Part shown: piece after piece, positions 8,189 to 39,749 of the stretch
Position numbering within the stretch: the stretch's first letter is position 1
Layout of the letters: every line of letters begins with the position of its first letter
NCBI GenBank assembly: GCA_026400735.1
Contig: JAPLOL010000107.1
Location: 1 to 52,164 of the forward strand
Direction: 5' to 3'
DNA length: 52,164 bases
Source of the DNA: Alphaproteobacteria bacterium
Lineage (GTDB): Bacteria; Pseudomonadota; Alphaproteobacteria; Caulobacterales; Aquidulcibacteraceae
The notes under the pieces: model-generated
The model's input: the letters and a program-made list of their open reading frames with translations, nothing else
The model's database searches: none
Told to the model about the DNA's origin: nothing
Made by a program: the position numbers and the translations under genes

Positions 8189-8308
8189 TGCGCCCCGCTT
8201 CTGCGCGCCAAAGGAATATACCGCCCGGCCTCGCCTCGTAATGCGGCGCGAGTAAGGCCAGAACAGCGTCCGAAATGTAGCGGATTTAGCTTAAGATTCG
8301 CGCGAATA

Positions 8309-9454: not shown

Positions 9455-9518
9455 GAAGATCGGGAAAGTACCCGATCGGGCTTGCTATCAAGTTGAAAAC
9501 TTGGGTGAATAGAACGGT

Positions 9519-9539
9519 AACTACAGTTTGACTGCAGTT
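9519..9539. promoter_or_regulatory. Imperfect inverted repeat in the amiC / 9603 divergent promoter region
   Basis: AACTACAG and CTGCAGTT (one mismatch) flank a 5-bp spacer in the 148-bp region between the two divergent start codons. It is a candidate operator by position and symmetry only. Confidence 0.35.
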
Positions 9540-9602
9540 GGCGCGAACGCCGCCTGTCGCGGCGGGATTGAGTAATTCTCAACACCGTGTTCACTCTGCG
9601 GC

Positions 9603-23074: not shown

Positions 23075-23443
23075 CTACTGTCGGCAGTCGATCGCCCAAA
23101 TGTCGTATGTCGGATGCTCGAGCGCATTGAGCCCTGGGCTCGAGGCGAACATCCAGCCTTCGAACACTTGCCGGCGCTCGCTCTCTTCGCCTTCACGCGC
23201 AGCTGGGTGATCGTAAATCTGCAGGAAGATGCTCACTTCCGGCGTCTCTTCCGGCGCCGATTTCGTGCAGGAGCGCGCAATAACTTCAAGCGTGCCAACG
23301 CGCGCCGGGCGTCCAAGCGTCAGCGTGTAGTCGCGTGCGTGACCGGTAATCTTATCGAGCCCCCGCACGACGGCGCGCTGCGCGAACGCAGGGCTGACGC
23401 TGGCGGCGAACATCGCGGCAGCAATGGCGAGTGTACGGATCAT
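23075..23443 (-). CDS. DUF2155 family exported protein
   Basis: 122 residues. The signal peptide ends SPAFA. The mature part follows the family pattern: VVRGLDKITGHARDYTLTLG, then LEVIARSCTKSAPEETPEV and VFEGWMFASSPGLNALEHPTYDIW, ending in IDCRQ. Two cysteines are conserved and probably disulfide-linked in the periplasm. Function is unknown. Its ATG overlaps the mlaD stop (ATGA), and the NDUFA12–mlaD–DUF2155 order recurs in alphaproteobacteria. Confidence 0.92.
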   Translation of the reverse strand: MIRTLAIAAAMFAASVSPAFAQRAVVRGLDKITGHARDYTLTLGRPARVGTLEVIARSCTKSAPEETPEVSIFLQIYDHPAAREGEESERRQVFEGWMFASSPGLNALEHPTYDIWAIDCRQ

Positions 23444-23919
23444 GGGGCAGCTTCCTCAGAATTCCCAGAGTTCCCCGAGCCCTGAGCCATGCTTGCGAAT
23501 AACGTCAACAAATCGACCGAACCTTGCGTGTTCGGAATCTCGCCGCCAGCGGCCAGCGGATCCATCCCCGCCGGTTCGATCGCGACATAGGCGCCGCCGA
23601 GCAAACCGTCCGTCGCAATCCGCGCCGTGGATTCATCCAGCACTTGCACACCGTTGTGCACGGTCAGCGTCAACACCGCGTTATACGTCGTCGGATCAAG
23701 CGCGACCGCGCGCACAACGCCAACTTTCACGCCGGAAATGCGCACATCCGAGCCAACGCTGACGCCGTCGACGCGCTGAAAGCTCGCGTGAAGATCGTAG
23801 CCGCTGCCCGTCGTGTTCTGTCCGGCCTGCGCTGCCGCGAATGCGAAAAATCCAACCGCGACCACGGCGACAATCGCGCCAAGAATGGTTTCGCCCCAGC
23901 GTTCGAAATTGAACTTCAC
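23440..23919 (-). CDS. mlaD: MlaD-family lipid-binding protein (MCE domain)
   Basis: 159 residues from GTG 23919, which shares GTGA with the NDUFA12 stop and puts the transmembrane helix (about 11–33) at the right distance. The MCE domain (about 42–130) has ASFQRVDGVSVGSDVRISGV and DGLLGGAYVAIEPAG. A short Gly/Asn/Ser tail follows. MlaD forms periplasmic hexamers that carry phospholipids for the outer-membrane asymmetry ABC system. The other Mla components are not in this window. Confidence 0.93.
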   Translation of the reverse strand: MKFNFERWGETILGAIVAVVAVGFFAFAAAQAGQNTTGSGYDLHASFQRVDGVSVGSDVRISGVKVGVVRAVALDPTTYNAVLTLTVHNGVQVLDESTARIATDGLLGGAYVAIEPAGMDPLAAGGEIPNTQGSVDLLTLFASMAQGSGNSGNSEEAAP

Positions 23920-24320
23920 TTGGTCTCTCCCGAATCCGGAGACCAAGCCTCGTAGTCAGCCGTTGACGTCTGCCTAACGCCGCCGCGCGCCAGCGAGCCC
24001 TTCGGTCGATACGCGCGTACGGTGCCGGTCAGATTCGGCTGGTGCGGCTTTTCCCAAACCTGGCGCTTCAGCGGCGCAATCGTCGGCGGCTCAGCGATCG
24101 TGTGATGCATCCAGCCATGCCAATCAGGCGAAACGCGCGAGGCTTCAGCGAGGCCGTTGTAAATCACATACCGGCGCTTGCGCCCTTCGATCGAAGGACG
24201 CCGCTCCTCGTAGTATTTGTTGCCTTGCTCGTCCTGGCCCACAAAAACCCCACGGCGCCCGATATCGAACCGCGCGCCTAAGGTCGCGCCGTTCCACCAG
24301 GAAAAAATCGCTTTCAGCAT
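23916..24320 (-). CDS. NDUFA12-family complex I accessory subunit
   Basis: 134 residues from ATG 24320 (MLKAIFSWWNGATLG); the longer frame to 24452 adds an unrelated Arg/Ser-rich stretch. The core GARFDIGRRGVFVGQDEQGN, RRYVIYNG and VSPDWHGWMHH are the signature of NADH:ubiquinone oxidoreductase subunit NDUFA12 (17.2 kDa). It is found in mitochondria and many alphaproteobacteria, bound to the matrix or cytosolic arm. It is first in the operon with mlaD and DUF2155. The 196-bp gap to 24517 must hold two divergent promoters; no strong boxes stand out. Confidence 0.95.
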   Translation of the reverse strand: MLKAIFSWWNGATLGARFDIGRRGVFVGQDEQGNKYYEERRPSIEGRKRRYVIYNGLAEASRVSPDWHGWMHHTIAEPPTIAPLKRQVWEKPHQPNLTGTVRAYRPKGSLARGGVRQTSTADYEAWSPDSGETK

Positions 24321-24516
24321 GGGCTTTTGTTTGTCTCCGCCTGGCCGGGATTGCGACTCTGGGCGCGCAGGCGGCCGGGAATATGACGAGCGCCGCGCTT
24401 CCCGTCCAGTACGCCCCCGAAACAACATCCTGTGGTTATCCCAAGCCGTCACATACTAGATGTTGATTGCGAGCCCGGATCAAAGGTAGAGTAGGCCCTG
24501 GCTTAGGGAGGCCAAC

Positions 24517-27312
24517 ATGGGTCACGACCACGACGACGACATCCGTCCAGCAGCGGAAGCTCCAGAGGCATGGACAGATTCCATGGTTCAGGCGGCGCTC
24601 GAAGCAGGCATCGCCATCGAAACCCCGGCTGGCCCAAGCGTGTCCAAAGCCCTGAAGCGCGCCGCCGAACGGATCGGCGCCTGGGCGGATGAGCCCGCGC
24701 TCGGCAAGGACGTCCTAAAGCTGCTTGAGAGCGGCGCCATCGCGCTCGACGCGCCACTCATGCGCGCCGCTCTTTCGGCGGGCGCAGAACTCGCCGTCTC
24801 CACGGCCCTGCTGCATTGGCCAGCTCAACGCAGCGACGAACTCGAGGCCATCGCCCGCGTACAAACCTTGCTCGCCGCCGGCGCCAAGATCGGCATCGCC
24901 GGCGCACCGTCACCCGCAGCGCTCGACGCGCTCGACGCCGCCGCGCGTCTCGCCGATCCGATCGGCCGCGACGGCGCATCGATCCTCATCCGCCCAACCG
25001 GCGACGCCGCAACTGAGATCATCGCCTCTACCACTGCGCGCGCACGCGCAGGCGCCGCGCTCGCCGCAGGCGCACGCGCGCTCGACGCCGTCCTCGCTGA
25101 TCTCGCCATCGAAGCCATGCGCAACGGCCTCAACGCCGAACATGGCGGCGTGCAGCTCAAGGCCACCAGCGCGCGTCTCACTGGCGCGCCTGACGCCGAC
25201 ATCATCGCCGCTCTGTCCGGCGCCGTCGCGCGCGGCGCCTACACCGCATCGCTCGACGCAGGCGCGGATCCAACACACCGCCGTATCGCCATTGCTGCGC
25301 CCGAAGCTGGCGGTCACGCGATGACCGCGTTCGCCAACGGCGCCATCGATCCAACCGGCGCCGTCTGCTCTGAAGCCGAAGGCACAACCATCGGCGCCAG
25401 CATCGCGTTGCCGCGCTTCATGGGCGCACGCGCGTTCGACATCACTGCGTTCGAAACCGCGATCCGCACCCTCGTCCGCGCACTCGATGCCGCCCACGGC
25501 GGCGCTGGCTCACCGCGCCGCTCGATCCTCATTCGCCTCGAAGGCCTCGCCGCGCTGCTCATGCGCTCGGGCCTCGCCTACGACAGCGACGAAGGCCGCG
25601 CGCTCGCCGCCAAAACCGCGGCGCTCGCGCACGCCGCCGCAATCTCCGAAAGCGCAGCACTCGCCGCCGCAAAGAACGCCTACCCCGAATGGCAACGAAG
25701 CAAGCGCCAGGAAGAGGCGAGCGTTAAAGCTTCGCGCGATGCTGCCTCCAGGCTCACAGGGCCTATCGCCGAGCACGCACAATCAATCTACGCCGCGCTT
25801 CCAGGCCCCAAGAACGCCGGCCTGCGCTGCGCGGTCTCCATCGCCTTCGCCAATGACGCCGCCTCCGCGCGCGCTATCGGCGCCACCGCGCCAGGCCTCG
25901 CACCCGCGCACACCATCGCCATCTACGGCCAACGCGACGATGGCGGCTTCGGCCGCTTGCTAAGCGACGACGTCCGCAACGCACTCGCCGCCCTCGGCTA
26001 TGAAGGCGAAGAGATCGCCGCGATCGCCCAACACATCGAAGGCCGCCGCACGTTACGCGGCGCGCCCGGCGTCAGCCTTGAGCGTCTCGAAAAACTCGGC
26101 CTCACCGAACCTGCGCTCGACGCGATCGAAGACGCCGCCGCCGATGCGTTCAACATCCGCGCCGTCGTGCATCCGCTCGTGATCGGCCCTGAGCTTTGCG
26201 AAGAAGTGCTGAAGCTGCCGCCCGACGTCGCCGCCGGCAAACGCGGCGATCTCCTGATGACGCTCGGCTTCAGCGAATCCGAAATCGCGCAAGCCGAAGC
26301 CTATTGCCTCGGCGCCACCGATCTCATCGGCGCCCCGGGCCTCAAGCTCACGCACGCCCCTATCTTCGCACGCGACATCGACGCCGGCGCACAGATCGCT
26401 ATGGCCGCAGCGCTCGCGCCATTCGCCAACACCGCGGTCGACATCTCGCTCGATCTCGCCAACACCGCGCGCCGCTCCGCGCTGCTCGACGCCGCGCAAA
26501 CCGCAGGTATCGCGCTGATCAACATCAGCGCCGAAGCGCCGCCGATCACGCTGACGCTCTCGTCCATCGAGGACGAGGCCGACGCCGAACCCGCGCCAAC
26601 GCCGATCCCCGCAGCGGCCACATCACCGGTGCAAGAAGCACCCGCGCACCACGAGCGCCGTCGCTTGCCGGAACGCCGCAAAGGCTACATCCAAAAGTCC
26701 ATCGTCGGCGGTCACAAAGTCTATCTGCACACCGGCGAATACGATGACGGCGAACTCGGCGAGATCTTCATCGATCTGCATAAGGAAGGCGCCGCCTTCC
26801 GCTCGCTGATGAACAATTTCGCGATCTCAATCTCGATCGGCCTGCAATACGGCGTGCCGCTCGAAGAATATGTCGACGCCTTCCTCTTCACCCGCTTCGA
26901 ACCGGCAGGCGAAGTCAAAGGCAACGAAACCATCCGCCACGCCACCTCGATCCTCGACTACATCTTCCGCGAACTCGCTGTGTCCTATCTCGGCCGCACC
27001 GATCTCGCCCAAGTCGATCCCTTCGACGCACGCGGCGACGGCCTGAGCAAACGCGCTACCGACGCCGAAAGCGCCGCACGTCTCATCTCGCGCGGCTTCG
27101 CCCGCGGCGCGTCACCGGACAATCTCGTGATGCTGCGCCCACGCTCCGTCGTCGAGAACATCCGCGACCGGAAAGAAGCGCCAGCCGCTCCGTCAAAGCC
27201 AGTTGCCACCGGCTATCGCAACGATCCGTGCGGCGCCTGCGGCCACTTCACAGTAGAACAAACCGGCAAATGCGCCGCCTGCGGCGCAACCGGTGAAGCG
27301 AGCGGCGGCTAG
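24517..27312 (+). CDS. Degenerate class II ribonucleotide reductase-like protein (TSCPD domain)
   Basis: 931 residues, very alanine-rich, with a strong AGGGAGG site. The C-terminal part (about 715–830, [20 protein letters not shown] onward) is very close to the end of alphaproteobacterial NrdJ (TSCPD domain), and a CxxC…CxxC tail (C905, C908, C919, C922) follows. Residues about 480–690 also match NrdJ in order (LRGAPGVS, then [12 protein letters not shown]). The catalytic half is poorly conserved: CSE (Cys284) resembles the thiyl-radical loop NPCSE, but the preceding Asn and the partner cysteine after it seem lost. It is also about 250–300 residues shorter than NrdJ. Reductase activity is unlikely; a regulatory or structural paralogue is inferred. 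Confidence 0.75.
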
Positions 27313-27336
27313 CGCACGCGCCGACGGTTGCAAGTT

Positions 27337-27387
27337 GGAGCGCGCGACCTCCGGTCGCGCAAGCGTCGCCGGCGGCGCCGCGCTCCC
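27337..27387. repeat. REP-like palindromes, inverted pair
   Basis: Two elements of the form GGAGCGC–6 nt–TCC/GCC–6 nt complement–GC face each other. Copy A on the plus strand is 27337–27361 (arms GCGACC and GGTCGC). Copy B on the minus strand is 27363–27387 (arms GGCGCC and GGCGAC). The pair fills the gap between convergent stops and resembles a bacterial interspersed mosaic element. Confidence 0.7.
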
Positions 27388-27423
27388 AATTTCTCCGGTA
27401 AGTGCGAAGCGCGACGCCACGCA

Positions 27424-27837
27424 CTAGCGCGTCCGCGCGCTATCTCGGCCGCGCTCGAAGCCCGGGACGTCGCCGTACTGGACCCAGTCCTGCTTGTTTA
27501 CATCATAGACCGAACGATCCGGCGGAAACTGCTCACTCGGCTCGAAGCAGCCAACTGCAACGCCGATGCGGTTGGTATCGCGCGAGCCGTACCAATAGAG
27601 GCTTGTCGCGCAGACCGGGCAGAAGAAATTCGAGAACGTATTTCCGCTCTCGGTCGGTCGCGTGTACTCGCGCGCCTCACCGATGAACGTCACTTGTTCG
27701 CGCTTATAGTAGGCGCCCAGCCCGAACGGGCCGCCACTCCTGCGCCTGCAATCGGCGCATGCACACGCCACCACGGCTTCGCGCTCACCCTCAACCTGCA
27801 CACGCAAAGCGCCGCAGCCACATCGTGCTTCTTTCAT
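27424..27837 (-). CDS. GFA-family zinc protein
   Basis: 137 residues from ATG 27837; the longer frame to 27909 is cysteine-rich but runs into the upstream gene. The GFA (glutathione-dependent formaldehyde-activating-like) fold shows CGCGAL, ACADCRRRSGG and FFCPVCATSLYW, i.e. the CxC, CxxC and CxxC zinc ligands. Most members are not true formaldehyde enzymes and have unknown small-molecule roles. It follows the ABC permease gene by 19 bp. Confidence 0.92.
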   Translation of the reverse strand: MKEARCGCGALRVQVEGEREAVVACACADCRRRSGGPFGLGAYYKREQVTFIGEAREYTRPTESGNTFSNFFCPVCATSLYWYGSRDTNRIGVAVGCFEPSEQFPPDRSVYDVNKQDWVQYGDVPGFERGRDSARTR

Positions 27838-27856
27838 GGCGCCGCCATAGCACAAC

Positions 27857-29248
27857 TCACATCGACGCGTAGCCGTACCAAAGCACCAGCAACACCAGCC
27901 GCGCCGCAAACGAAGATCCCGTCAGCGTCGACAGCACAATCGCCACCGTTGCAGCGATCGCGCCTGACGCCGCCGCCAACGGCAACACCTCCAGCGCAAC
28001 TGCCGGCGCCGCAGCCGGCAACGCCAACAACGTCGTCCACATCGCCCCAGCGATCACAAACGCCACGCGTCGCATCATCGGCGCGAACGGCGCAACTTTC
28101 GTCAGCGCCACCAACCCGCGCGCCTCCGTGCGTCCTGCATGCGCTGACAGCGCAAACAGCAACAACAGCAACGCGGCAGGGCTGCCGACGTGCCTGAAAT
28201 CCGTAAACGCGGAGATCACCGCGACCGCGGCCGCCAAAATCAAGAACACGCGTCCCGAGCCAATCAGCCTAAACTCGGAGACCACCAAGCCAACGGCGTC
28301 AGCCATCGCCCGCTTCGCCGCCGGCGCATTCACCACCACACGCGGCGGCGGCCCCGCATTCAGCAAGGCGCCCAAACGCCCCGCGAGCACAGCCTTCTTC
28401 TTCGCCTTGTGCGGCGCATAGATTACGCCCGCGAGCACAACCAGCGCCACCGCAACGCCAATCCAAGCCAAACGCGATTCCAAATAGCCAGGCGACATTA
28501 GCCCCGCCATGACATCGAGATTGATCGTGCCGGTCGCTAGAAAGCCGCCGCCGATTGAGAAATCATCCGCCGGACCCGGCGCGCCGTATGTAAGCGGCCT
28601 CACGAAGCCAGCGAAGTCATGCATGTTGGAAGCGAAGCTGGGCGCCGACTTGGACGTCACGATGGGTGCGATCAACGATCCCATCCACGTGCAAAAATAA
28701 CCAAAGTCGCCAAAGCCGGAGCGCAACAGCGGCCGCGCGTCAAACAGAATACGCAAAGCTGCAACGCCAATCACGGCTGGTCCCGCCACCACCCACATCG
28801 CAAAGCTCAACTCGGCGACATTCAGCGCATCGCCGCGCAGCATGAATGTCGCAAGATAGAGTCCCGCCAAGTTCAACGCCGCGAGCACGCCCAACAGCAC
28901 CAACGCGTCAGCGCCGAAGCGTCCCAGTGCAATCGCTACTCGGGAGCCGATCGTCACTTCTTCCACTTGCCATGGCTGGCGTCGTGTTGTGTTCGACCGC
29001 AGAAACAGCCACGCGATCGGCAAAACCAAAGTCGAAACAATGATCCCAAGCGACACGCCCAGAAACGGTGACGTCATCACCGGCAGCGCGTCGCCAACGG
29101 CGATACGCACCCCGCCGCCATCCTCGAACGGCAACATGTACCGCGCACCCAATGGCGCCACGAGCAGCATCAGCCACAGCGCGCGGCTACGCCCATAGCG
29201 CAGCAGCGATGTCGTCAACGAAGACGCAGAGATAACGGCCGCGTTCAC
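27857..29248 (-). CDS. ABC transporter permease-like integral membrane protein
   Basis: 463 residues from a GTG start that overlaps the ATPase stop (GTGA). About ten hydrophobic segments are spread along the chain, with a large central extramembrane region (about 190–260) and a Lys/Ala-rich loop (about 285–320). No close family is recognised, but the architecture and coupling to the ATPase indicate the membrane part of an ABC-2-type exporter. The substrate is unknown. Confidence 0.78.
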   Translation of the reverse strand: MNAAVISASSLTTSLLRYGRSRALWLMLLVAPLGARYMLPFEDGGGVRIAVGDALPVMTSPFLGVSLGIIVSTLVLPIAWLFLRSNTTRRQPWQVEEVTIGSRVAIALGRFGADALVLLGVLAALNLAGLYLATFMLRGDALNVAELSFAMWVVAGPAVIGVAALRILFDARPLLRSGFGDFGYFCTWMGSLIAPIVTSKSAPSFASNMHDFAGFVRPLTYGAPGPADDFSIGGGFLATGTINLDVMAGLMSPGYLESRLAWIGVAVALVVLAGVIYAPHKAKKKAVLAGRLGALLNAGPPPRVVVNAPAAKRAMADAVGLVVSEFRLIGSGRVFLILAAAVAVISAFTDFRHVGSPAALLLLLFALSAHAGRTEARGLVALTKVAPFAPMMRRVAFVIAGAMWTTLLALPAAAPAVALEVLPLAAASGAIAATVAIVLSTLTGSSFAARLVLLVLWYGYASM

Positions 29249-29907
29249 GCCACCGCCTCCGGCGCGCGCGCTGCGGAGGGCGCGACCTGCCCGTTCTCAA
29301 CACGCAGCACCGCCCGCGCGCTCGGCGCTAACTCGTCAGCCAAGTGCGTCGTCACCACCACGATCGCACCAGCGCGCGCGCGCTCCACGATCAACGCGCC
29401 CAGTTTCCGCGCGGTCTCGCCATCCAATTCCGCCGTCGGCTCATCCAACGCCAAAAGCTCCGGCTTGCCCAACAGCGCCTGCGCGAAGATCAAACGCCGG
29501 CGCATGCCGCCCGAAAAGCTCGCGATCCGATTGTTGATATCGGCATGCAGACCGATCGCATCCGTGATCGCGCCAAACTGTTTGTCCGTTTGACCGAGGT
29601 TCAGGCCCTTCAACGCCGCGATATGCATTGCAAACTCACGCGCCGTCAGATCCTCCGGCAGATCCACCGCTTGCGGCGCGTAGCCCAGCGTCTTGCGCAA
29701 CGCGCCACGCCCGCCGCTGCCATTCCACAGGATCGAACCCTTGTTCGGCCGCTCAGCCGTCGCGATCAAACGCAACAACGTGGATTTCCCCGCGCCGCTC
29801 GGCCCGACCAGCAGCGTCAGCCCCGGCTCGAACGTCAGCGAAATGTCCTGAAGCACGCGTTTGCGGCCGTAGGCTTTGCCCACGCCCTTTAGTTCAAGCG
29901 ACGTCAT
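29245..29907 (-). CDS. ABC transporter ATP-binding protein
   Basis: 220 residues from ATG 29907, preceded by GGAGG. Walker A GPSGAGKS (35–42), Q-loop (GYAPQAVDLP), signature SFSGGM, Walker B LLALDEPTAELD and H-loop TTHLAD are all intact. It resembles the ATPases of ABC-2-type exporters. It pairs with the permease encoded by the overlapping downstream gene. The longer frame up to 29952 lacks a ribosome-binding site. Confidence 0.95.
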   Translation of the reverse strand: MTSLELKGVGKAYGRKRVLQDISLTFEPGLTLLVGPSGAGKSTLLRLIATAERPNKGSILWNGSGGRGALRKTLGYAPQAVDLPEDLTAREFAMHIAALKGLNLGQTDKQFGAITDAIGLHADINNRIASFSGGMRRRLIFAQALLGKPELLALDEPTAELDGETARKLGALIVERARAGAIVVVTTHLADELAPSARAVLRVENGQVAPSAARAPEAVA

Positions 29908-29979
29908 CCCCGTCCTCCGGCCCTCCGAGCGGGCCTTGTAGTCGAGATGCACACACCTTCCCGCTTGGATGCAACGGGA

Positions 29980-29998
29980 TTCAGCCGCCGTTCAGCCG
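29980..29998. promoter_or_regulatory. 11-bp-spaced direct repeat between the ABC operon and the curli locus
   Basis: TTCAGCCG occurs at 29980–29987 and 29991–29998, an 11-bp period. OmpR/PhoB-type response regulators bind such spaced direct repeats. A 10-bp perfect palindrome (TTCTGCAGAA, 30027–30036) follows. The 240-bp divergent region must contain the promoters of both operons. Confidence 0.4.
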
Positions 29999-30147
29999 GC
30001 CCATGCCCGCGCGTCATAACCATGTCTTCTGCAGAAAGTGCACACTGAGCTTTCCGTTCAAACACCGCTCAGGTGACGCACGCCATTGTCGCAACTGTTC
30101 AAGCGTTGGCGAGGGACCGCTGTCACTTGGACCGGGAGCTTAGAGTT

Positions 30148-30654
30148 ATGAAACGTCTTTTGACCGCAGTCGCCGCCGCAGCCCTTCTCGCCAGCATGGG
30201 CGCACCAGCTGCTTACGCGCAAAACCGCACCGTCGTGAACCAATCAGGTTACTCGAACGCCGCCGGCGCCGTGCAGAACGGCAACCGCAACGGCGCTGTC
30301 ACCAACCAACGCGGCAACCGCAACTACGCACGCGGCGTCCAGGACGGTTACAACAACTTCCTGCGCATGGATCAGTACGGCACGCGCAACCACGCCACGA
30401 CGACGCAAGTCGGCACCGACAACTTCGCCGCCACGGGCCAAGAGGGGCGTAACCTCAGCTCGAACGTGATCCAAACGGGTCGTGGCAATGTCGCCGGCGT
30501 CGCGCAGATCGGCAACGGCAGCCGCGCAGTAACGGACCAAGACGGCCGCAACAACACCTCTGGCATCATCCAGATCGGTAACGGCCAAGACGTCGAAGTC
30601 CGCCAACGCGGCGAAGGCAATATCTCGGTCGTGGTTCAAAGCGGCTACAACTAA
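30148..30654 (+). CDS. Curlin-repeat protein (curli amyloid subunit-like)
   Basis: 168 residues from ATG 30148 (GGGAG upstream); the frame before this is not supported. The signal peptide ends AAYA. The rest is almost entirely curlin repeats: about thirteen units of xQxGxxN at a spacing of 10–12 residues (NQSGYSN, VQNGNRN, NQRGNRN, TQVGTDN, IQTGRGN …). This is the pattern of CsgA/CsgB, which form extracellular beta-sheet amyloid fibres. With so many units it may be the major subunit or the nucleator; sequence alone does not decide. It lies upstream of csgH and a second curlin-repeat gene. The export pore CsgG is not in the window. Confidence 0.92.
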   Translation: MKRLLTAVAAAALLASMGAPAAYAQNRTVVNQSGYSNAAGAVQNGNRNGAVTNQRGNRNYARGVQDGYNNFLRMDQYGTRNHATTTQVGTDNFAATGQEGRNLSSNVIQTGRGNVAGVAQIGNGSRAVTDQDGRNNTSGIIQIGNGQDVEVRQRGEGNISVVVQSGYN

Positions 30655-30720
30655 GCGCAACCGCGGGAAGGCGCACTCTGCCTTCCCGCCCCGCCTCCTC
30701 TTTCGAGTGGGAGCACTCCA

Positions 30721-31197
30721 ATGTTGAAAAGATCAGTTTCTCTTATCGCGCTCGCAGCGCTTCTCACCACCGCCTGCACTGCGGCCGCGGCGACCAACAC
30801 CGCCATCACGACGCAAGCCCCGTTGGCGCCGGTTGCGATGGTCGAGCCTGCAATGGCTGCACCCGCGCCTGCCGAAGCCGCATTCACGCCGGCCACGTAC
30901 GACAGCGCGCCGCTCACCTGCGAAGTTCGCTCGCGCCGGACCTCGAATGGCGTGCTCATCCAAGCGCGCGCCTTTGCCGACCGCGACATCGATGCGTCGT
31001 ACGACCTGCGCATCGTCAAATCAGGCGGCGGCAACTCATCTGAAGTCAGCCAATCTGGCGACTTTTCGCTCGACGCCGGCTCCTCAGCCACACTCGGCGA
31101 AAACGAGATGAGCTTCGAACGCGGCTCGCATCTGCGCGCTTATCTCACGATCAGCGACGCACGCGGCGAACTTTGCCAACGCACTTTCCGGCTTTGA
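30721..31197 (+). CDS. csgH: CsgH-like curli chaperone
   Basis: 158 residues. The signal peptide ends near LLTTAC, which could be a weak lipobox. An Ala/Pro-rich linker precedes a beta-sandwich domain of about 95 residues. It is bounded by two cysteines (LTCEVRSRR and GELCQRTF) and contains YDLRIVKSGGGNSSEVSQSG, the CsgH pattern. CsgH replaces CsgC in alphaproteobacteria and blocks premature curlin aggregation in the periplasm. It is sandwiched between the two curlin-repeat genes and starts 66 bp after the first. Confidence 0.9.
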   Translation: MLKRSVSLIALAALLTTACTAAAATNTAITTQAPLAPVAMVEPAMAAPAPAEAAFTPATYDSAPLTCEVRSRRTSNGVLIQARAFADRDIDASYDLRIVKSGGGNSSEVSQSGDFSLDAGSSATLGENEMSFERGSHLRAYLTISDARGELCQRTFRL

Positions 31198-31208
31198 AAG
31201 ATACGGAC

Positions 31209-31610
31209 ATGACTAAGCTTGCCAACTTCTCCCGCATCGCGCTCGCCGCTCTCGCGATGAGCGCCGTGCTTGCCGAACCCGCCAGCGCACAACGCTGGCG
31301 GCGCGCGCCTCAGAACGTGGCGACGACGACGCAAGTCGGCCAAGCCAATGCCGCGGGGATTGCGCAGAATGGTCAGGCCAATAATGCCGGCGTCGCGCAG
31401 TTCGGCTCGAACAACACCGGTACGGTCCAACAGAACGGCAACAACAACACCGGCTGCGTGATCCAATTCGGCCGCAACAACGACGCAGCCCTCGCCCAAA
31501 CCGGCGACTCAAACAGCGTCGCAGTGGTCCAAGGCCGCGGCCAAACCCGCATCATGTCCGGCGACGTCTGCACCCGCGGCTTCATGGGCATCCGCGTCGT
31601 CGGCCGCTAA
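31209..31610 (+). CDS. Second curlin-repeat protein
   Basis: 133 residues from ATG 31209, 11 bp after csgH. The signal peptide ends PASA. Six or seven curlin units follow (TQVGQAN, AQNGQAN, AQFGSNN, QQNGNNN, IQFGRNN, AQTGDSN). A C-terminal non-repeat tail carries a cysteine (GDVCTRGF), and another cysteine lies within a repeat (TGCVIQFG); they could form a disulfide, uncommon in curlins. With fewer repeats than the upstream protein it could be the minor or nucleator subunit (CsgB-like), but this is inference. A hairpin follows directly. Confidence 0.9.
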   Translation: MTKLANFSRIALAALAMSAVLAEPASAQRWRRAPQNVATTTQVGQANAAGIAQNGQANNAGVAQFGSNNTGTVQQNGNNNTGCVIQFGRNNDAALAQTGDSNSVAVVQGRGQTRIMSGDVCTRGFMGIRVVGR

Positions 31611-31615
31611 CAAAA

Positions 31616-31660
31616 GCGCCGCGCTCCCAATCTAGGAGCGCGGCGCCTCCGGCGACGCAT
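31616..31660 (+). repeat. REP-like element forming a 12-bp hairpin after the curli locus
   Basis: A perfect 12-bp stem (31616–31627 with 31635–31646) with a 7-nt loop leads into the 26-nt core 31635–31660, which is identical to the copy at 32383–32408. It begins 5 bp after the last curlin stop and may also stop or stabilise that transcript, though no T-run follows. Confidence 0.7.
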
Positions 31661-31696
31661 AGGCGGGCCGGACGCGCTCCAATTCGTGTATTGTCG

Positions 31697-32320
31697 CTAG
31701 CGCGCCGTCACCGGTTGCATCGGCATAAAGAACAACAACAAGCCCGAAGCCTTTGCGCTTCCGCCATCACAAACCTCAGCGCGAGGCCGCGCCTCCCGGA
31801 CAAACTCGCGCGCACCTGGGCGAAGCACATGCGTCCAGGCCTGCCCGTCGGGAGCTCCGTCTTGGGATGTGCAACTATAGTCTGCCGCATAGACAATGTT
31901 GTCCGCTCGATAACTTATGACCGCGCGCTCCCACGCGTACGGAAAGGTGAAGGCGGCGCGCAGTTCGCCGCGAGCGCTGACAACGTAGATTCGCGTCGCT
32001 TGAGCGTCGATGCAATCGGTGCGGCCAGTGCGAACAACAATATCGCCTCTTCCGATGGCGATTTCCGCGGTGTTCGACGAATAGCCCCAAGGCAGCGGAG
32101 GCCGGTCCTGGCGCCACGGACTGCGCTCAACAAGCACGCGCTCATTGACCAAGAGCCGATCATTGGCCGTCAGCCGAATATCGAGCCCCGACACGCGCGC
32201 CGTATAGCTATCGACCGCAAACGTGTATCCACAATCCTCTAAGCTCTCCGGCACATCCTGGGCCGACGCGCACACCGAGCCGCCAAAGAGCGCCGCCGTC
32301 ACAATCAAAGATCGCCACAT
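31697..32320 (-). CDS. Exported protein of unknown function
   Basis: 207 residues from ATG 32320, preceded by GGGAGCGG. The signal peptide ends CASA. The mature protein is beta-rich with four or five scattered cysteines (EDCGYTF, TDCIDAQ, YSCTSQ, AEVCDGG) that could form disulfides. The C-terminus is short and hydrophobic (LLLFFMPMQP). No family recognised. It lies between two REP-like elements and stands alone on its strand. Confidence 0.72.
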   Translation of the reverse strand: MWRSLIVTAALFGGSVCASAQDVPESLEDCGYTFAVDSYTARVSGLDIRLTANDRLLVNERVLVERSPWRQDRPPLPWGYSSNTAEIAIGRGDIVVRTGRTDCIDAQATRIYVVSARGELRAAFTFPYAWERAVISYRADNIVYAADYSCTSQDGAPDGQAWTHVLRPGAREFVREARPRAEVCDGGSAKASGLLLFFMPMQPVTAR

Positions 32321-32370
32321 CAACCGCTCCCGGCGCGAAACTTAGTTAGCTACAATCCGACTACACCAGC

Positions 32371-32409
32371 GCGTCCCAAATAGGAGCGCGGCGCCTCCGG
32401 CGACGCATA
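32371..32409 (+). repeat. REP-like element, copy 3
   Basis: The core 32383–32408 is identical over 26 nt to 31635–31660, with a shortened left arm (GCGTCCC, then AAATA). It lies between the start of the exported-protein gene and the stop of the AraC gene. Confidence 0.7.
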
Positions 32410-32427
32410 CGCTGCCCTATGCCCTCG

Positions 32428-33231
32428 CTAAATATAAACAGTATTCAGCAAGCGATCTCCAGTCGCGGCCTTTGAGCGCTGATAGGCGCCCGGCGTGAGC
32501 GACGTCAGCGCCACGAACTCGTGCCCTAAGTGCGCATCATCGCAAAATTCGAGCAGCGCGCTCTCGTCAACGGGCCGCCACGAAGATGGGTTCAATCCGT
32601 TCATCGCCCGCTGCAGCCGCGCTACGCGCAAGCCCTGCTTCACACTCCAACCAATCTCGCGGGCGAACCCACGCTGCAAACTGCGCTCACTGATCCTCTG
32701 CCGCGCGGCAATTTCTCGGACACTGCCGCGGAGCTTCCCTTCTGCGATCGCATCGGCCACGTCCAACAGCGGCGACTCCACAGGCATAAGCCGCGTGCTC
32801 AACCACGCGGACGCAATCGCAACGCGTTCATCGAAGCTCTGCGCTTCGCAAAGATCGCGCTCCAAACAAACGCAATTATCCAACTCGTCCAGAGCGATGC
32901 GGCGATTTAGAACAGAGGCTGGCGAAGTACGCAGCAACGAAGCTAGTCCACGTGTCGTGAGGATGACCACAAACACTTGAAGCGGTTCGGTGTGCCGGCA
33001 AACCATCACATGGTCGCTGGCGCCCCACACCGCCGCGCGCGGTACATCCCGATCGCGTTCGCTCTCGATCCTATAGGCGCCCCGCACGAAAACTTGCAGA
33101 AGCGGGTAAAGTAGCGGCAGTTCCAATGCCCGCCCGGACAGGCTGATATCATTGCGCTGAGCGAAGCCCGCAACGTAGGGACGCTGAGCTTCCTGCGAGG
33201 CGCAAAATTGGAATGATGTCGGTGCGCTCAT
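32428..33231 (-). CDS. AraC-family transcriptional regulator
   Basis: 267 residues. The N-terminal about 160 residues are a beta-rich sensing domain with several cysteines (CRH, NCVCLERDLC). The C-terminal AraC double helix-turn-helix covers about 170–255 (REIAARQRISERSLQRGFAR is the first recognition part; FCDDAHLGHEFVALTSLTPG the second, with the usual P-x-x-Y/R end). It is divergent from the serine hydrolase gene with only 48 bp between start codons, which suggests control of that gene. Confidence 0.9.
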   Translation of the reverse strand: MSAPTSFQFCASQEAQRPYVAGFAQRNDISLSGRALELPLLYPLLQVFVRGAYRIESERDRDVPRAAVWGASDHVMVCRHTEPLQVFVVILTTRGLASLLRTSPASVLNRRIALDELDNCVCLERDLCEAQSFDERVAIASAWLSTRLMPVESPLLDVADAIAEGKLRGSVREIAARQRISERSLQRGFAREIGWSVKQGLRVARLQRAMNGLNPSSWRPVDESALLEFCDDAHLGHEFVALTSLTPGAYQRSKAATGDRLLNTVYI

Positions 33232-33279
33232 GTCGGAAATCTACAATACCCGCGGCGTTGCCATCCCTACAACCTCGTT

Positions 33280-34686
33280 ATGACGAAGCAGCATTGGTCC
33301 CGCGCAGCCATCCTCGCACTCGCGGCAGCGTCGTGCGCCTCGATGGAAAGCACCCCGCCGGCGGAACTCAGCGCCTATGCCTCGGGACTTCAGCCCGGAT
33401 GCGGGACCGCCGTGTTCGGCGCATCGCCTCGCTTCAGTGCTTCAGGTTACGCCGACTTGAGTCAGCAATCACCTATTGATCGAAATACGCGCTTCCCGAT
33501 CGGCTCAGTCACTAAGCAATTTACCGCGTTGGTCGTGCTTCATTTGGCCGAGAGCGGTCAGCTTTCGTTGGATGCGCCGGCCAGCCGATACGTTCCAGAA
33601 CTCTCAGGCGCGCTTGGCGGCGCAACTGTACGTCAATTGCTGAACCAGACAGCCGGCGTTCGTGACCACACCAGTCTACTCATCATGACTGGCGTCGAAA
33701 CGCTCAGCCCCATCTCACGCGAGCAATCGCTGGCTCTTCTCGCACGTCAGCGCGCCACGAATTTTGCCCCGGGCGCCCGCGCACAATATTCGAACGGCAA
33801 TTATCTCGTTCTCTCAGAGATTGCGTCACGCGTTTCCGGCGAAAGCTTCGAAGCGCTCACAACCCGCATCATCTTCCGTCCGCTTCGCATGACGAACACC
33901 GGTTTCATCGGAAGTGGCGAGCGCGCCAGCGGCTATCGCCCGACGCGAGACGGTTTCGTCACGGCAGAAGACATGCCCTCCGCCAATGGGCCAGGCGGCG
34001 TCGTTACAACGCTCGCGGATTTGCGACGCTTCGACACCGATTTCCGTACGGGCGCCCGCGTTTGGACGCCATGGATCAAGCAACAAATGTTGGCCCCCGC
34101 TCAGCTCACTGACGGGACCCAGGCAACAATGCCCGAATTCGATAGCGCCTACGGCATGGGCGTGGCTCTCGGATCGCGGACCGGCGCCCGCTACGCGGCC
34201 CATGACGGCGGTGTCGAAGGCTTTCGCGCCGAATACGTTCGCGCACTCGATCAGAATGTGAGCGTCGCGGTACTCTGCAATCGGGCGGACGCTGATTCGA
34301 GTTCGATCGCCTTCGCCCTCTTCGACGAAGCGCTGAATTTGCCGACGGCGCCAACCGAACAAGCACCGCAGCCACCACAATCCCCCGCGTCACAACCAAC
34401 GCCCGCACCGAGCGAACTGCTCGCGCGCATCGCAGGCGCGTATCACTCCGATGAACTCAACGCGGACTTCAACATCGTCGCCATCCCCGGGGGCCTCGAA
34501 GCGACAATCTCGTCTCCCTACAATCCGCAACCCGTCGAAGACACCTGGGGCGCAATCCGTGTCGCTGGCGAAGACCTCCGCACTGGCCCCTTGCGCATCC
34601 GCCCCGTGATCGACTCTGGTCAAGTCAGCGCACTCACGCTGTCCTTCGGACGCCGCGCCGAAGGCGTCGTGCTCACGCGACGGTGA
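33280..34686 (+). CDS. Serine hydrolase, beta-lactamase class C / D,D-peptidase family
   Basis: 468 residues. The N-terminus carries a signal ending AAASC, a possible lipobox. The catalytic fold has SVTK (Ser76, Lys79), YSN (Tyr170, Asn172) and AHDGG, where class C enzymes have KTG-like HTG. A Pro/Gln linker (about 350–385) leads to a C-terminal beta domain. Such proteins range from esterases to D-aminopeptidases, so beta-lactamase activity should not be assumed. The divergent AraC gene is the likely regulator. Confidence 0.93.
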   Translation: MTKQHWSRAAILALAAASCASMESTPPAELSAYASGLQPGCGTAVFGASPRFSASGYADLSQQSPIDRNTRFPIGSVTKQFTALVVLHLAESGQLSLDAPASRYVPELSGALGGATVRQLLNQTAGVRDHTSLLIMTGVETLSPISREQSLALLARQRATNFAPGARAQYSNGNYLVLSEIASRVSGESFEALTTRIIFRPLRMTNTGFIGSGERASGYRPTRDGFVTAEDMPSANGPGGVVTTLADLRRFDTDFRTGARVWTPWIKQQMLAPAQLTDGTQATMPEFDSAYGMGVALGSRTGARYAAHDGGVEGFRAEYVRALDQNVSVAVLCNRADADSSSIAFALFDEALNLPTAPTEQAPQPPQSPASQPTPAPSELLARIAGAYHSDELNADFNIVAIPGGLEATISSPYNPQPVEDTWGAIRVAGEDLRTGPLRIRPVIDSGQVSALTLSFGRRAEGVVLTRR

Positions 34687-34976
34687 GATACGCGGATTGG
34701 ACCGACCTCTATCCAACAACTTTTCGTGCTAACTTCTTGAATCTCCTCACGCCGCACAAAATCAATCCAACACCTTTCGCGCCATCATAAACTTCCCCCG
34801 TCGCAGTTCACGCGGAGGGGTTGGCGCCAATCCCAATCTGAACAGCGATGCGAGGTGAGCGAGAGCGATGCCGTCGGGGATGAAACCGCCGGGTCCGGGA
34901 CTTCAAATTGGGCTTTCGCGTCCCCGCTCCGCATCTGGCGGCATCGCATCACGCGATGGCGCGACAAGGGTGACGC
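34687..34976. other. 290-bp intergenic region with nested inverted repeats
   Basis: No gene is supported. The left half is relatively AT-rich. The right half has a perfect 9-bp pair (34865–34873 with 34939–34947) enclosing a 6-bp pair (34875–34880 with 34921–34926), plus CCCAAT/ATTGGG near 34832 and 34906 as an alternative pairing. It could be a structured leader or small RNA before the coiled-coil gene. I see no match to a tRNA, tmRNA, SRP or RNase P signature. Confidence 0.45.
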
Positions 34977-35399
34977 ATGCCTAACGCAACAAACCGCCGC
35001 GCCGAAGCCGAAGCGCGTGGCCTGCTGAAACGCTCAGAACAGATGCTCGGCCGCGCATGCCAGCACCTTTTCAACGGCGATCCGCTCGTCGCCATGCGCA
35101 TGCTGCGTGCAGCCGAACAACTCAACCAACTCGACAGCCGGTTGCGCACAAAGCGCGAAGCCGAGCGGACGAGCCTCGCCGCACGCACCGCCAATGACCT
35201 CAAGAAGCGCGAACGCGCCTGTGAGCGGCGCGAGGAGCTGCTTGAGAACGCCTCCAAGGACGTCGCCCAGCGCCACGAAGACGTGCGTCAAGCGCAAGCG
35301 GCGCTGAACGCCACCTACGAGTTAATGCGCGCCGGCAAAGTCGATGGCCCGCCTCCTGCGACAGAGACGGAAACAGTTTCTGGAGTTGCGCCATTATGA
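34977..35399 (+). CDS. Small coiled-coil protein of unknown function
   Basis: 140 residues, no signal peptide. A helical N-terminal half (LLKRSEQMLGRACQHLFNGD) is followed by a long charged coiled coil (about 50–115) rich in Arg/Glu/Ala. The tail is short and disordered, Pro/Thr-rich. No family recognised. Its stop overlaps the ATG of the first pentapeptide-repeat gene (ATGA), so the two are translationally coupled although one product is cytosolic and the other exported. Confidence 0.75.
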   Translation: MPNATNRRAEAEARGLLKRSEQMLGRACQHLFNGDPLVAMRMLRAAEQLNQLDSRLRTKREAERTSLAARTANDLKKRERACERREELLENASKDVAQRHEDVRQAQAALNATYELMRAGKVDGPPPATETETVSGVAPL

Positions 35400-35932
35400 A
35401 ACGCGCCGCGCTTTTCGCTTGCCTCTTTGCGTTCACCACGCCCGCTTTCGCGCAAGCCCCGTCCGCCACCGGCGGCCCGATCACGAACCAAGCCGAGCGC
35501 GATGGCATCGCCGCACGCGTGCGCGGCGGCGCCAGCTGCGCCAATTGCGACCTTTTCCAGATCAGCTTGGCCTACCAAGCCATCCCGGGCCGCGACTTCT
35601 CCGGCGCCCGCATTCGCCAAGCGGATCTCTCGCTCGCCACCGCCGACCGCGCACGTTTCCACGGCGCGAACATGTCGCTGACCAATTTCTTCGGCGCGCG
35701 TCTCTCCGGCGCTGACCTCAGCGACACCAACCTCGAAGGCACCACGTTCGTCGGCGCCTATCTCGGTGGCGCGCGCATGAGCGGCGCAATCGTCAGCGGC
35801 GCAAACTTCTCTGGCGCGGAACTCGATAGCGCAGTCGGTATTACACAGGCGCAATTGAATACTGCGTGCGGCGATGCGACGACCACGCTCCCCGCTGGGA
35901 TGACTATCCCGACCTGCGGTAACAACCAGTAA
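35396..35932 (+). CDS. Exported pentapeptide-repeat protein 1
   Basis: 178 residues. The signal peptide ends PAFA. A CANCDL motif precedes about ten pentapeptide repeats (A[D/N]LSx-like: DFSGA, ARIRQADLSLA, ANMSLTNFFGARLSGADLSD) that should fold into a right-handed quadrilateral beta-helix. The C-terminal cap is QAQLNTACGD, LPAGM and a last Cys. The same cap occurs in the neighbour at 35993. Pentapeptide proteins of this exported class have no known function. Confidence 0.9.
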   Translation: MKRAALFACLFAFTTPAFAQAPSATGGPITNQAERDGIAARVRGGASCANCDLFQISLAYQAIPGRDFSGARIRQADLSLATADRARFHGANMSLTNFFGARLSGADLSDTNLEGTTFVGAYLGGARMSGAIVSGANFSGAELDSAVGITQAQLNTACGDATTTLPAGMTIPTCGNNQ

Positions 35933-37195: not shown

Positions 37196-38998
37196 CTAGC
37201 TCTTCGGCACGTCCGCGATGCGGATGTGCAGCTCTTTCAGCTGCTTCGGTGTCACTTCGCTTGGCGCCTGCATCATCAGATCCTGCGCCTGCTGGTTGAA
37301 CGGGAAGACGATGACTTCGCGGATGTTGTCGACGCCCGCGAGCAACATGACGATGCGGTCCACGCCCGGGGCAGACCCGCCGTGCGGCGGCGCGCCGAAG
37401 CGGAACGCGTTCAGCATACCGCCGAACTTCTCTTCGACTACGCTCTGCGGATAGCCTGCGAGTTCGAACGCCTTGATCATGATCTCAGGCTTGTGGTTCC
37501 GGATCGCGCCCGAGCTCAGCTCAACACCATTGCAAACGATGTCGTACTGGAACGCCGTGATCTTCTCGATCGTCGCGCGATCGTTGATGTCGAGCTTCAA
37601 GAAGGCTTCGTGATCGAAGTTCGGCATTGAGAACGGGTTGTGCGAGAAGTCGATCTTCTTCTCTTCCTCGCTCCACTCGTACATCGGGAAATCGACGATC
37701 CAGCAGAACTTGAACTGATCCTTGTCCGCGAGGTTCAGTTCATCCGCGACCTTGTTACGAGCCTGACCCGCAAACTTGTAAAACACACTCGGATCGCCAG
37801 CGACGAAGAACGCCGCATCGCCGACCTTCAGCCCAAGCTGTTCGCGAATAGCGTTGGCCTTTTCCGGTCCAATGTTTTTCGCGATCGGACCAGCGCCACC
37901 TTCCTCGCCTTCACGCCAGAAGATGTAGCCAAGGCCCGGCTGGCCTTCGCCCTGCGCCCATGAATTCATCTTGTCGCAGAACGCGCGCGAACCACCGTTC
38001 GGCGCAGGCACGGCCCACACAGCTTGGCCCGGCTTCTCAAGGAAACGCGCAAACAGGCCGAAACCACCGCCGCGGAAGTGATAGCTGACATCCTGCAACA
38101 CCAGCGGGTTGCGCAAGTCCGGCTTGTCCGAGCCGTACTTCGAAATTGCCTCGGCATAAGGAATGCGCGGGAATTCGTTCGCAGGCGTAACACGCTTGCC
38201 GTTGCCGAATTCCTCGAAAACACCCGCGAGCACCGGACCTATGGCGTTGAACACATCTTCCTGCGTGACGAAGCTCATCTCGAAATCGAGCTGGTAGAAC
38301 TCGCCCGGCGAGCGGTCAGCGCGCGCGTCTTCATCGCGGAAGCACGGCGCGATTTGGAAGTACTTGTCGAAGCCCGCCACCATCAGCAGCTGCTTGAACT
38401 GCTGCGGCGCTTGCGGGAGCGCGTAGAACTTGCCCGGATGCAAACGCGAAGGCACCAAGAAGTCGCGCGCGCCTTCCGGCGACGACGCCGTCAAGATCGG
38501 CGTCTGAAACTCAGTGAAGCCCTGATCAATCATACGACGGCGCAGCGACGCGATCACTTGGCTACGCAGCAGGATCGACTTGTGCAGCTTGTCGCGGCGC
38601 AGATCGAGGAAGCGATACTTGAGGCGCGTCTCTTCCGGATAGTCCGGCGCGCCGAACACCGGCAACGGCAACTCTTCAGCCGTGCCGAGAACTTCCGCGT
38701 CCTCAACGCGTACTTCGATCGCGCCTGTCGCCAGTTCGGCGTTCACAGTCTCCTTCGCGCGCTCCACGACCTTGCCGTCGATCCGCACCACCGTTTCGGC
38801 GCGAACGCGCTCGAACAGCGCAAACGCGGCCGAACCCGGATTAATGACGAGCTGAGTGATCCCGTAATGGTCGCGCAGGTCGACAAAGAGCAGCCCGCCC
38901 AAATCGCGCTTGCGGTGCACCCAGCCGCCCAGACGCACGTCTTTACCCGCATCAGCCGGACGGAGAGCGCCGCAGGTGTGGGAACGGTATGCGTGCAT
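37196..38998 (-). CDS. aspS: Aspartyl-tRNA synthetase
   Basis: 600 residues from ATG 38998 ([20 protein letters not shown]); the longer frame to 39118 is unsupported and would overlap the divergent SRAP gene. An OB-fold anticodon-binding domain ([20 protein letters not shown]) is followed by the class II core: motif 2 around [11 protein letters not shown], a bacterial-type insertion domain (about 290–420), and motif 3 with [20 protein letters not shown]. Whether it also charges tRNA-Asn cannot be told. Confidence 0.97.
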
Positions 38999-39110
38999 AA
39001 GGAAACTCCAGGTGCGCCGAGTCACGAAGCTCGGCCGCAATTCGCGCGGAAAGCGCATGGGGCAAGCCGCCTTGTCAAGGCGCGGAACGCCCCGCAAATG
39101 GGCCCTGCGC

Positions 39111-39749
39111 ATGTGCAACCTCTATTCCATGACCAAATCGCGCGAAGCGGCCGTCGCCTACACCCGCGCGATGCGCGATCGCACCGGCAATCAGCCGCCG
39201 CTGCCCGCCATTTTTCCCGATCAACTCGCGCCGGTCGTCGGCAATTCGAAAGAAGGCCAACGCGAGATGGTGATGATGCGCTGGGGCTTTCCTCCTGCCG
39301 GCGGCGGCAAGCGCCCTGTCACCAATGTCCGCAATCTCAAGTCCAATTATTGGAAGGGCTGGCTTGAGGAGCCAAGGTTCCGATGCGTCGTCCCCGCAAC
39401 GAGTTTCGTGGAGTACAGCGACACATCGCCAAAGGTCGCACACTGGTTTGGCCTGGGCGACGATCGCCCGCTCTTTTGCTTCGCAGGCATCTGGCGGCCA
39501 TGGAGCGGTATCCGCGGCAAAGAGGACGGTAGGCACTTGCTCTTCTCCATACTCACGACCGAGCCGAACGAACTCACCAAGCCTATTCACGCAGAGGCAA
39601 TGCCGGTGATGCTCACAGGTGAAGAGATCGATGTCTGGCTTGAAGGCTCAACCGAAGACGCATTGGCGCTAGCCAAACCGTTCCCGGCTGACAGAATGAA
39701 GATCGTACTATCGGGGCCGCGCGAAGACGCCGGGGGAGAGACGCCATGA
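39111..39749 (+). CDS. SRAP domain protein (HMCES/YedK-like abasic-site sensor)
   Basis: 212 residues from ATG 39111, so that Cys2 is exposed after Met removal (MCNLYS). That cysteine forms the covalent thiazolidine link with abasic sites in single-stranded [34 protein letters not shown] (catalytic Glu) and [10 protein letters not shown] (active-site His) complete the SRAP set. The family is linked to the SOS response, but I see no clear LexA-type box (GAAC–N7–GAAC) upstream. It overlaps the MBL gene by ATGA. Confidence 0.95.

Follow-up and report, generated by a model that had tools for sequence, protein, structure and literature searches.

An NrdJ-derived pseudoenzyme in Caulobacterales, probably retained in place for a non-reductive role of its C-terminal module

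The stretch of DNA analysed here (the window) comprises 52,164 nucleotides of contig JAPLOL010000107.1, from the assembly GCA_026400735.1 of an alphaproteobacterium of the order Caulobacterales, and carries a gene whose product derives from the class II ribonucleotide reductase NrdJ (Table 1). The first-pass annotation described an intact frame with a good ribosome-binding site, and the open reading frame, its ATG and the AGGGAGG five bases ahead bear this out. As it had also proposed, the C-terminus is close to class II reductases: the TSCPD family PF12637 matches residues 731-821 (40.6-44.7 bits against a family cut-off of 22.8), and the CxxC pairs are present, with four cysteines rather than six. 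The middle region aligns in order, through a weak PF02867 match at residues 294-520 and a weak in-order match to NrdJ upstream, and residues 341-655 align with the class II reductase entries 7b9q/7b9p of the PDB. Against whole-enzyme profiles the protein scores poorly: NF005736 matches at 5.6e-117 with 391.9 bits, far below its curated cut-off of 1737, and TIGR02504 (NrdJ_Z) gives 53.7 bits against a cut-off of 399.95. The class II N-terminal domain PF08471, which scores 138.6 bits in the full-length NrdJ L080, has no match in the window protein at E up to 1. Ahead of the C-terminal module there are 714 residues, as against 944-969 in three full NrdJs, so that about 250 are missing, in keeping with the deletion noted earlier. 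Twelve relatives, 65-85% identical to the window protein over the best segment, include several from Hyphomonadaceae and one from Terricaulis.

Table 1. Features of the nrdJ slot in the window, with coordinates counted from the first nucleotide of the stretch
Feature	Coordinates	Strand	Remarks
NrdJ-derived pseudoenzyme gene	24517..27312	+	931 aa, ATG start
Shine-Dalgarno-like AGGGAGG	24505..24511	+	5 bases ahead of ATG, read by eye
Residues 1-290, N-terminal-half remnant	24517..25386	+	PF08471 undetected, C199 segment deleted
Residues 272-300, site of lost radical loop (NPCSE in full NrdJ)	25330..25416	+	Unconserved CSE at 284-286
Residues 294-520, barrel remnant	25396..26076	+	PF02867, 51.6-53.5 bits
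Residues 715-830, TSCPD core	26659..27006	+	80-82% identity with three active NrdJs
Residues 905-922, C-x2-C-x10-C-x2-C ribbon	27229..27282	+	Four of six NrdJ cysteines; redox pair lost
NDUFA12 homologue, divergent neighbour, nrdJ-slot marker	23916..24452	-	Pfam and locus comparison
MlaD-domain gene, slot marker	23440..23946	-	Pfam and locus comparison
DUF2155 gene, slot marker	23075..23443	-	Pfam and locus comparison
Pentapeptide-repeat-like homologue	35396..35932	+	Locus comparison; family name recognised from sequence
aspS-like gene, downstream slot marker	37196..39118	-	82% to L099 copy; name recognised from sequence

The neighbours of the gene recur in a conserved order, aroQ-accB-accC-aat-DUF2155-mlaD-NDUFA12, then the slot itself, then a pentapeptide-like gene (not always present) and aspS; besides NDUFA12, MlaD and DUF2155, which were assigned by Pfam, the slot genes are named by recognition from sequence. 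The NDUFA12 gene lies upstream in the opposite direction at 38 of the 46 loci compared, and most of these 38 show the longer order, limited in part by the stretch fetched. The eight loci without it are L080, L081, L084-L086, L229, L233 and L244; the copy examined at L229 lies outside the usual slot, beside RidA- and acetyltransferase-like genes. In the window the pentapeptide-like gene stands about 8 kb downstream of the slot gene and 9.5 kb from the module, the latter distance being 1.0-1.8 kb in L088-L095 and L096-L098. The extra stretch (27313-35395) holds a 463-aa open reading frame at 27857-29248 on the reverse strand, which matches nothing in Pfam and has counterparts in L004, L005, L012 and L057.

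To see what remains of the active site, an alignment is available of 32 eroded proteins (the window protein included; L010, L011, L012 and L015 are incomplete) and seven full-length NrdJs from the same order. In the numbering of the full NrdJ L080, and by class II spacing, we take C199 and C487 to be the reducing pair and N474-P-C476-S-E478 to be the radical site. The N-x-C-x-E site is present in all seven full NrdJs and in none of the 32 eroded proteins, the C199 segment is absent from the latter, and none of their rows has a cysteine in the C487 column (L015 being too short). The loss of the asparagine and the partner cysteine, reported in the first-pass annotation, is therefore upheld. Its further claim that the radical-loop CSE is kept at Cys284 is not: the CSE of the window protein (284-286) lies off the active-site column and the 31 other eroded proteins all lack one (L015 ends short of the region), and the close relatives L004, L005, L057 and L060, 83-85% identical to the window protein, have R at that position. 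Shuffling the window protein produced a CSE somewhere in 2.7% of 20,000 trials, but it is the want of conservation, and not this figure, on which the verdict rests; the motif at Cys284 most likely arose by chance in a single sequence and is at most an isolated vestige. The window protein descends from the long alphaproteobacterial NrdJ and, as its residues indicate, is without the chemistry of that enzyme. In one of the incomplete sequences, L012 (CP096134.1, positions 8001-10828, a complete-genome MAG), the eroded gene falls into two frames of 596 and about 380 aa; this is a sequencing error or else a break of recent origin.

Six tail cysteines are present in all seven full NrdJs, and eroded proteins that reach the tail have four, arranged as C-x2-C plus C-x2-C (the frame split in L012 leaves its product short of the tail). 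For the NrdJ of Stackebrandtia, passages of PMC5704485 report that all six are needed for electron transfer, with cysteines 1, 2, 4 and 5 proposed as zinc ligands and 3 and 6 as the redox pair. The spacing in f3 forms such as L090 directly marks the third and sixth cysteines as lost, and a three-residue deletion in the genus of the window leads to the same outcome. Read from its sequence, and with roles assigned after those passages (PMC5704485), the window protein keeps the zinc-type positions and loses the redox pair. A structural model of the module is confident over the first 120 residues (ten-residue block mean pLDDT 87-98), the TSCPD core being predicted as three strands plus helices; a basic stretch, RRKGYxQK, is conserved in the core. 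Compared with the PDB at E up to 0.001 the modelled fold had no match, and compared with viral structures it had four, of which three are named reductases and one is nameless. A profile search of the PDB with the module gave weak ribbon-type or unrelated matches only (best E 0.014), and no solved chain with a TSCPD domain was recognised by sequence. The full-length model, built from a 12-row alignment, reached a pLDDT of 48 and was set aside as too poor.

The two parts of the chain differ greatly in conservation. When the window protein is set against 12 others, a mix of eroded forms and three full NrdJs, identity ahead of the module is 20-26% for 11 of them and 42% for the twelfth, L099 from its own family; over a 119-column core, the same 12 comparisons give 80-87%. 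L090 and two f2 proteins likewise share 18-19% upstream and 82-85% in the module. Nei-Gojobori estimates from nine orthologue pairs, which are rough in that dS is often near 1, put omega lowest in the TSCPD core (0.010-0.065), followed by residues 1-290 (0.061-0.332), the barrel remnant (0.114-0.369) and the linker at 620-713 (0.231-0.541), with no region above 0.54. This dN/dS comparison, which the first-pass annotation had recommended, establishes that the 931-aa open reading frame is real and under purifying selection, and that the module (TSCPD core plus four-cysteine ribbon) is its most constrained part. Purifying selection extends to the barrel remnant (omega below 0.4), so the rest of the protein may matter too. 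Constraint on the module can in addition be scaled by the distance between AccC proteins, for the 28 of 46 loci that remained after 18 were dropped for having no full AccC in the stretch, the pairs being non-independent: the module/AccC distance ratio is 0.48 for the 66 pairs of full NrdJs and 0.64 for the 120 pairs of eroded forms. Module distances for full and eroded forms are 0.147 and 0.165 at AccC distances of 0.25-0.30, 0.158 and 0.195 at 0.30-0.35, and 0.163 (14 pairs) and 0.292 (24 pairs) at 0.35-0.45. Following catalytic loss, constraint on the module is thus somewhat relaxed, and it is still tighter than that on AccC.

Elsewhere the slot holds a full NrdJ (in many families), an eroded form, the module on its own at about 270-295 aa, or nothing. 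NDUFA12 is present in all nine module-less genomes, and all five of their nine loci that were read show an empty slot: NDUFA12 is succeeded by the pentapeptide-like gene and then aspS, and the module has no match. Because it occupies the same slot, and because the slot is empty where the module is gone, the eroded gene is best read as a decayed orthologue at the NrdJ locus and not as a paralogue. The full f4 NrdJs L080 and L081 lie outside the slot, although their module nests among eroded forms (97/71 support); relocation or re-acquisition may account for this.

Beyond Caulobacterales, the module occurs alone in four f76 genomes (1.2-1.3 Mb) and one f11 genome, in frames of 277-301 aa, and all three loci examined, two from f76 and one from f11, are in the same slot. 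The ribbon is absent from the f76 stand-alone proteins and from L137, which weakens the case for a zinc role. L137, L138 and L144-L147 are further eroded forms, with frames of about 530-1090 aa. Among 17 genomes re-examined on account of short frames or weak scores, three passed the NrdJ cut-off; in G304, G233 and G357 a full NrdJ seems to have been cut by contig ends. The f76 module (L225, 5144-5965; L226, 4909-5724) begins with 55 conserved residues of its own that the NrdJ profile does not match; sought as a clue to a fusion partner, this N-terminal extension was found in one of 115 genomes, G143, itself a source of the query. Small stand-alone TSCPD-like open reading frames (133-161 aa frames), distinct from full viral NrdJs, also occur on the viral contigs L181, L185, L212, L221 and L222.

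Trees of the module indicate that erosion took place more than once. With 28 eroded forms among 56 rows, a single origin of all eroded forms is rejected (AU p 0.0004; the f22 rows L144 and L146 were left out of this test for their long branches), as is a grouping of Caulobacterales with L137, L138 or L139 (p 0.0013, 0.0002 and 0.003, respectively). One origin within Caulobacterales is not rejected (p 0.26), nor is one shared by Caulobacterales and f76 (p 0.33), nor one for L137-L139 (pairs p 0.18-0.22, all three 0.058). The trees were made without L110 (same genome as L138), L141, L143, L145 and L147 (not chosen), L112, L124 and L133 (which the motif missed) and some near-identical members of genera. 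As the other single-origin groupings stay unrejected, we claim only at least two origins, which the module sequences support; more than two are likely on the same evidence.

The distribution of the two forms was surveyed in 150 Caulobacterales genomes, 149 at a completeness of at least 95% plus the window's own. The module is present in 141, of which 35 have a full NrdJ and 106 the module without the catalytic half, and nine genomes are without it; the draws for the module and for the catalytic half consist of the same genomes as far as the listings were compared. With a 222-aa query from the catalytic half, E is 2.2e-90 or better for all 35 full NrdJs; 30 of them belong to f5 (every f5 genome drawn) and five to f4 (g11, g241 and g244); the remaining matches among those listed are at the level of NrdA, and one genome has none. 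Part of the 106 was read as sequence, with short frames in G409, G423 and G016; there is a stop inside the frame in G437, and no other listed genome has one within the module match. Fourteen rows show two module matches, the second being a further piece beside the first in the nine rows listed. In none of the 150 genomes were a full and an eroded form seen together. L229 (G235, group f119) has two eroded copies, on contigs 3 and 13. In the wider alphaproteobacterial class, the module is present in 195 of 290 genomes, most listed frames being about 1200-1370 aa. Absence from nine of 150 Caulobacterales and from 95 of 290 alphaproteobacteria means that it is dispensable in some lineages.

The window's own genome (G000; 3.58 Mb, 173 contigs, 93.5% complete) encodes a class I reductase, NrdA (624 aa, contig 156) and NrdB (contig 3). 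The search for an intact nrdJ elsewhere in it, suggested by the first-pass annotation, found no class II reductase at this completeness: only NrdA and the remnant match PF02867/TIGR02504, and no separate catalytic NrdJa was seen. A retained, non-catalytic derivative of NrdJ in a genome with another reductase, as that annotation envisaged, agrees with the absence of the active-site residues and the presence of NrdA and NrdB. No class II enzyme above the TIGR02504 cut-off was found in nine of 19 genomes (G000, G031, G061, G143, G224, G078, G317, G235 and G355), among them G061, a single contig rated 100% complete; NrdB was present in all eight genomes queried for it. In searches for enzymes of classes I and II, class I was the sole kind of reductase seen beside the module in G031, G061, G143, G224, G235 and G355, and probably in G317 as well. 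A second, intact short NrdJ of another class II subclass (744-848 aa, with NPCGE and a six-cysteine tail) occurs in L016-L021 and L078. The module thus persists both beside a further class II enzyme and in its absence. Frames with ATP-cones are NrdR-sized in all 18 genomes searched, with nothing else in 17 and an additional 854-aa frame in G078; the class I NrdAB of the window genome is without this activity switch. Compensation for a missing ATP-cone was rejected as an explanation of the module, since ATP-cones are alike in genomes with and without it.

What, then, has kept the gene? That it is a pseudogene on its way out might be suspected from the large deletions, the fast-evolving upstream part, the slots that are empty in some genomes, the split frame of L012 and the stop in G437. 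Such decay is nevertheless very unlikely: no other listed genome has a stop in the module match, the gene is retained order-wide, and an omega of at most 0.54 in any region, and of 0.01-0.07 in the core, denotes purifying selection, which contradicts it. We regard it as highly improbable that the protein is a decoy (as the first-pass annotation proposed) or an inhibitor of a co-resident NrdJ. Its NrdJ ancestry and the short class II NrdJ of some relatives would suit such a role, but the long and eroded forms were not seen together in the 150 genomes, the gene is best read as an orthologue and not a paralogue, and the eroded form is retained in genomes where no class II enzyme was seen, its own included, which speaks against a decoy of the short enzyme as well. 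Scarcely more credible is a trans-acting electron donor whose ribbon tail reduces another reductase. The tail of Stackebrandtia NrdJ can pass electrons between subunits (passages of PMC5704485), but the loss of the third and sixth cysteines, with four left, already contradicts this reading, and the f76 forms have no ribbon at all.

We consider it likely, instead, that the window protein is an in-place remnant of NrdJ that has lost its chemistry and whose module is retained for a non-reductive job. The module would do this job independently of nucleotide reduction, and a full NrdJ would perform it also; a genome would then have one form because the two share it. As to the nature of the job, our tentative suggestion, by analogy with active enzymes, is a nucleotide-responsive assembly or regulatory role: self-assembly in response to dATP/dGTP, a known non-redox property of the domain, would make the protein a scaffold or sensor on dNTP supply, acting for example on the remaining class I NrdAB. 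We favour this since, according to the portions of PMC5704485 that treat it, an active NrdJ depends on this domain to form higher oligomers with dATP/dGTP and is suspected of having a third nucleotide site. In a narrower version of the same explanation, whose odds overlap with it, the protein would regulate or partner NrdAB by direct contact. This would fit the presence of NrdA and NrdB in G000, class I as the only reductase seen in G031, G061, G143 and others, and the lack of ATP-cones in the reductase-sized frames of those genomes, but it is doubtful: the module-less G433, G063 and G050 have the same cone-less class I enzyme, so that the module does not track the lack of the cone; nrdA and nrdB are unlinked, on other contigs, in the window genome; and no shared interface is known. 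A regulator, as the first-pass annotation suggested, might still act on the class I enzyme. The job may also be unrelated to dNTP supply, concerning for instance nucleic acid or the membrane and respiratory chain, with NrdJ as its carrier, a possibility that deserves serious attention while falling short of probable. The module is retained whichever reductase is present, its long-standing neighbours are NDUFA12, MlaD and DUF2155, and the conserved RRKGYxQK of the core is basic; nothing positive points that way, however, and genomes that have lost the gene retain these neighbours just the same.

Loss of catalysis with retention for another function has a precedent in the large-subunit homologues of ribonucleotide reductase in betaherpesviruses. 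The likeness would be one of how the proteins work, by analogy, as these homologues are class I and viral and retain a different part. Nearest to the window protein is the long NrdJ (NF005736 / PRK07562), with which it shares the orthologous slot, a module 80-82% identical and a weak in-order match upstream, and from which it differs in having no NxCxE, no reducing cysteines, about 250 residues fewer, four tail cysteines as against six, and 392 bits as against 1737. The cysteine-rich domain of class II enzymes and NrdJb of Pseudomonas aeruginosa resemble it in combining TSCPD and zinc ribbon, with similar position and cysteine pattern; as described in sections of PMC5704485, theirs serves catalysis, has six cysteines and has a catalytic partner, whereas in the window protein the redox pair is gone and its genome yielded no class II partner. 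It scores above the cut-off of the TSCPD family PF12637, which is defined by sequence. We found no description of a TSCPD function or of this pseudoenzyme in the literature searched, which excludes most subscription papers.

For most class II reductases the tail domain has been credited with shuttling electrons and promoting oligomerisation in the service of catalysis (PMC5704485). Its conservation where neither catalysis nor the shuttle cysteines survive implies another task, and we think it quite probable that the TSCPD/cysteine-rich domain has an ancient second function, independent of nucleotide reduction and important enough for the domain to have persisted at the nrdJ locus after the enzyme was lost in several alphaproteobacterial lineages, including as the stand-alone protein of 1.2-1.3 Mb genomes. 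The eroded proteins isolate this non-catalytic function for direct test. There are also implications for annotation. In NCBIfam, the window protein and the stand-alone modules match B12-dependent reductase models best, far below cut-off. CCNA_01966 of Caulobacter crescentus is treated as NrdJ in a passage of PMC6538847 and named a vitamin B12-dependent reductase in a table of PMC5869019; the parts consulted of PMC3019208, PMC8365446, PMC5764234 and PMC12186491 add nothing on its identity. Because C. vibrioides, our named control, has no NF005736 match above the cut-off, CCNA_01966 is probably an eroded form or a short NrdJ. If it is such a pseudoenzyme, as it may be, gene names could over-count B12-dependent DNA synthesis.
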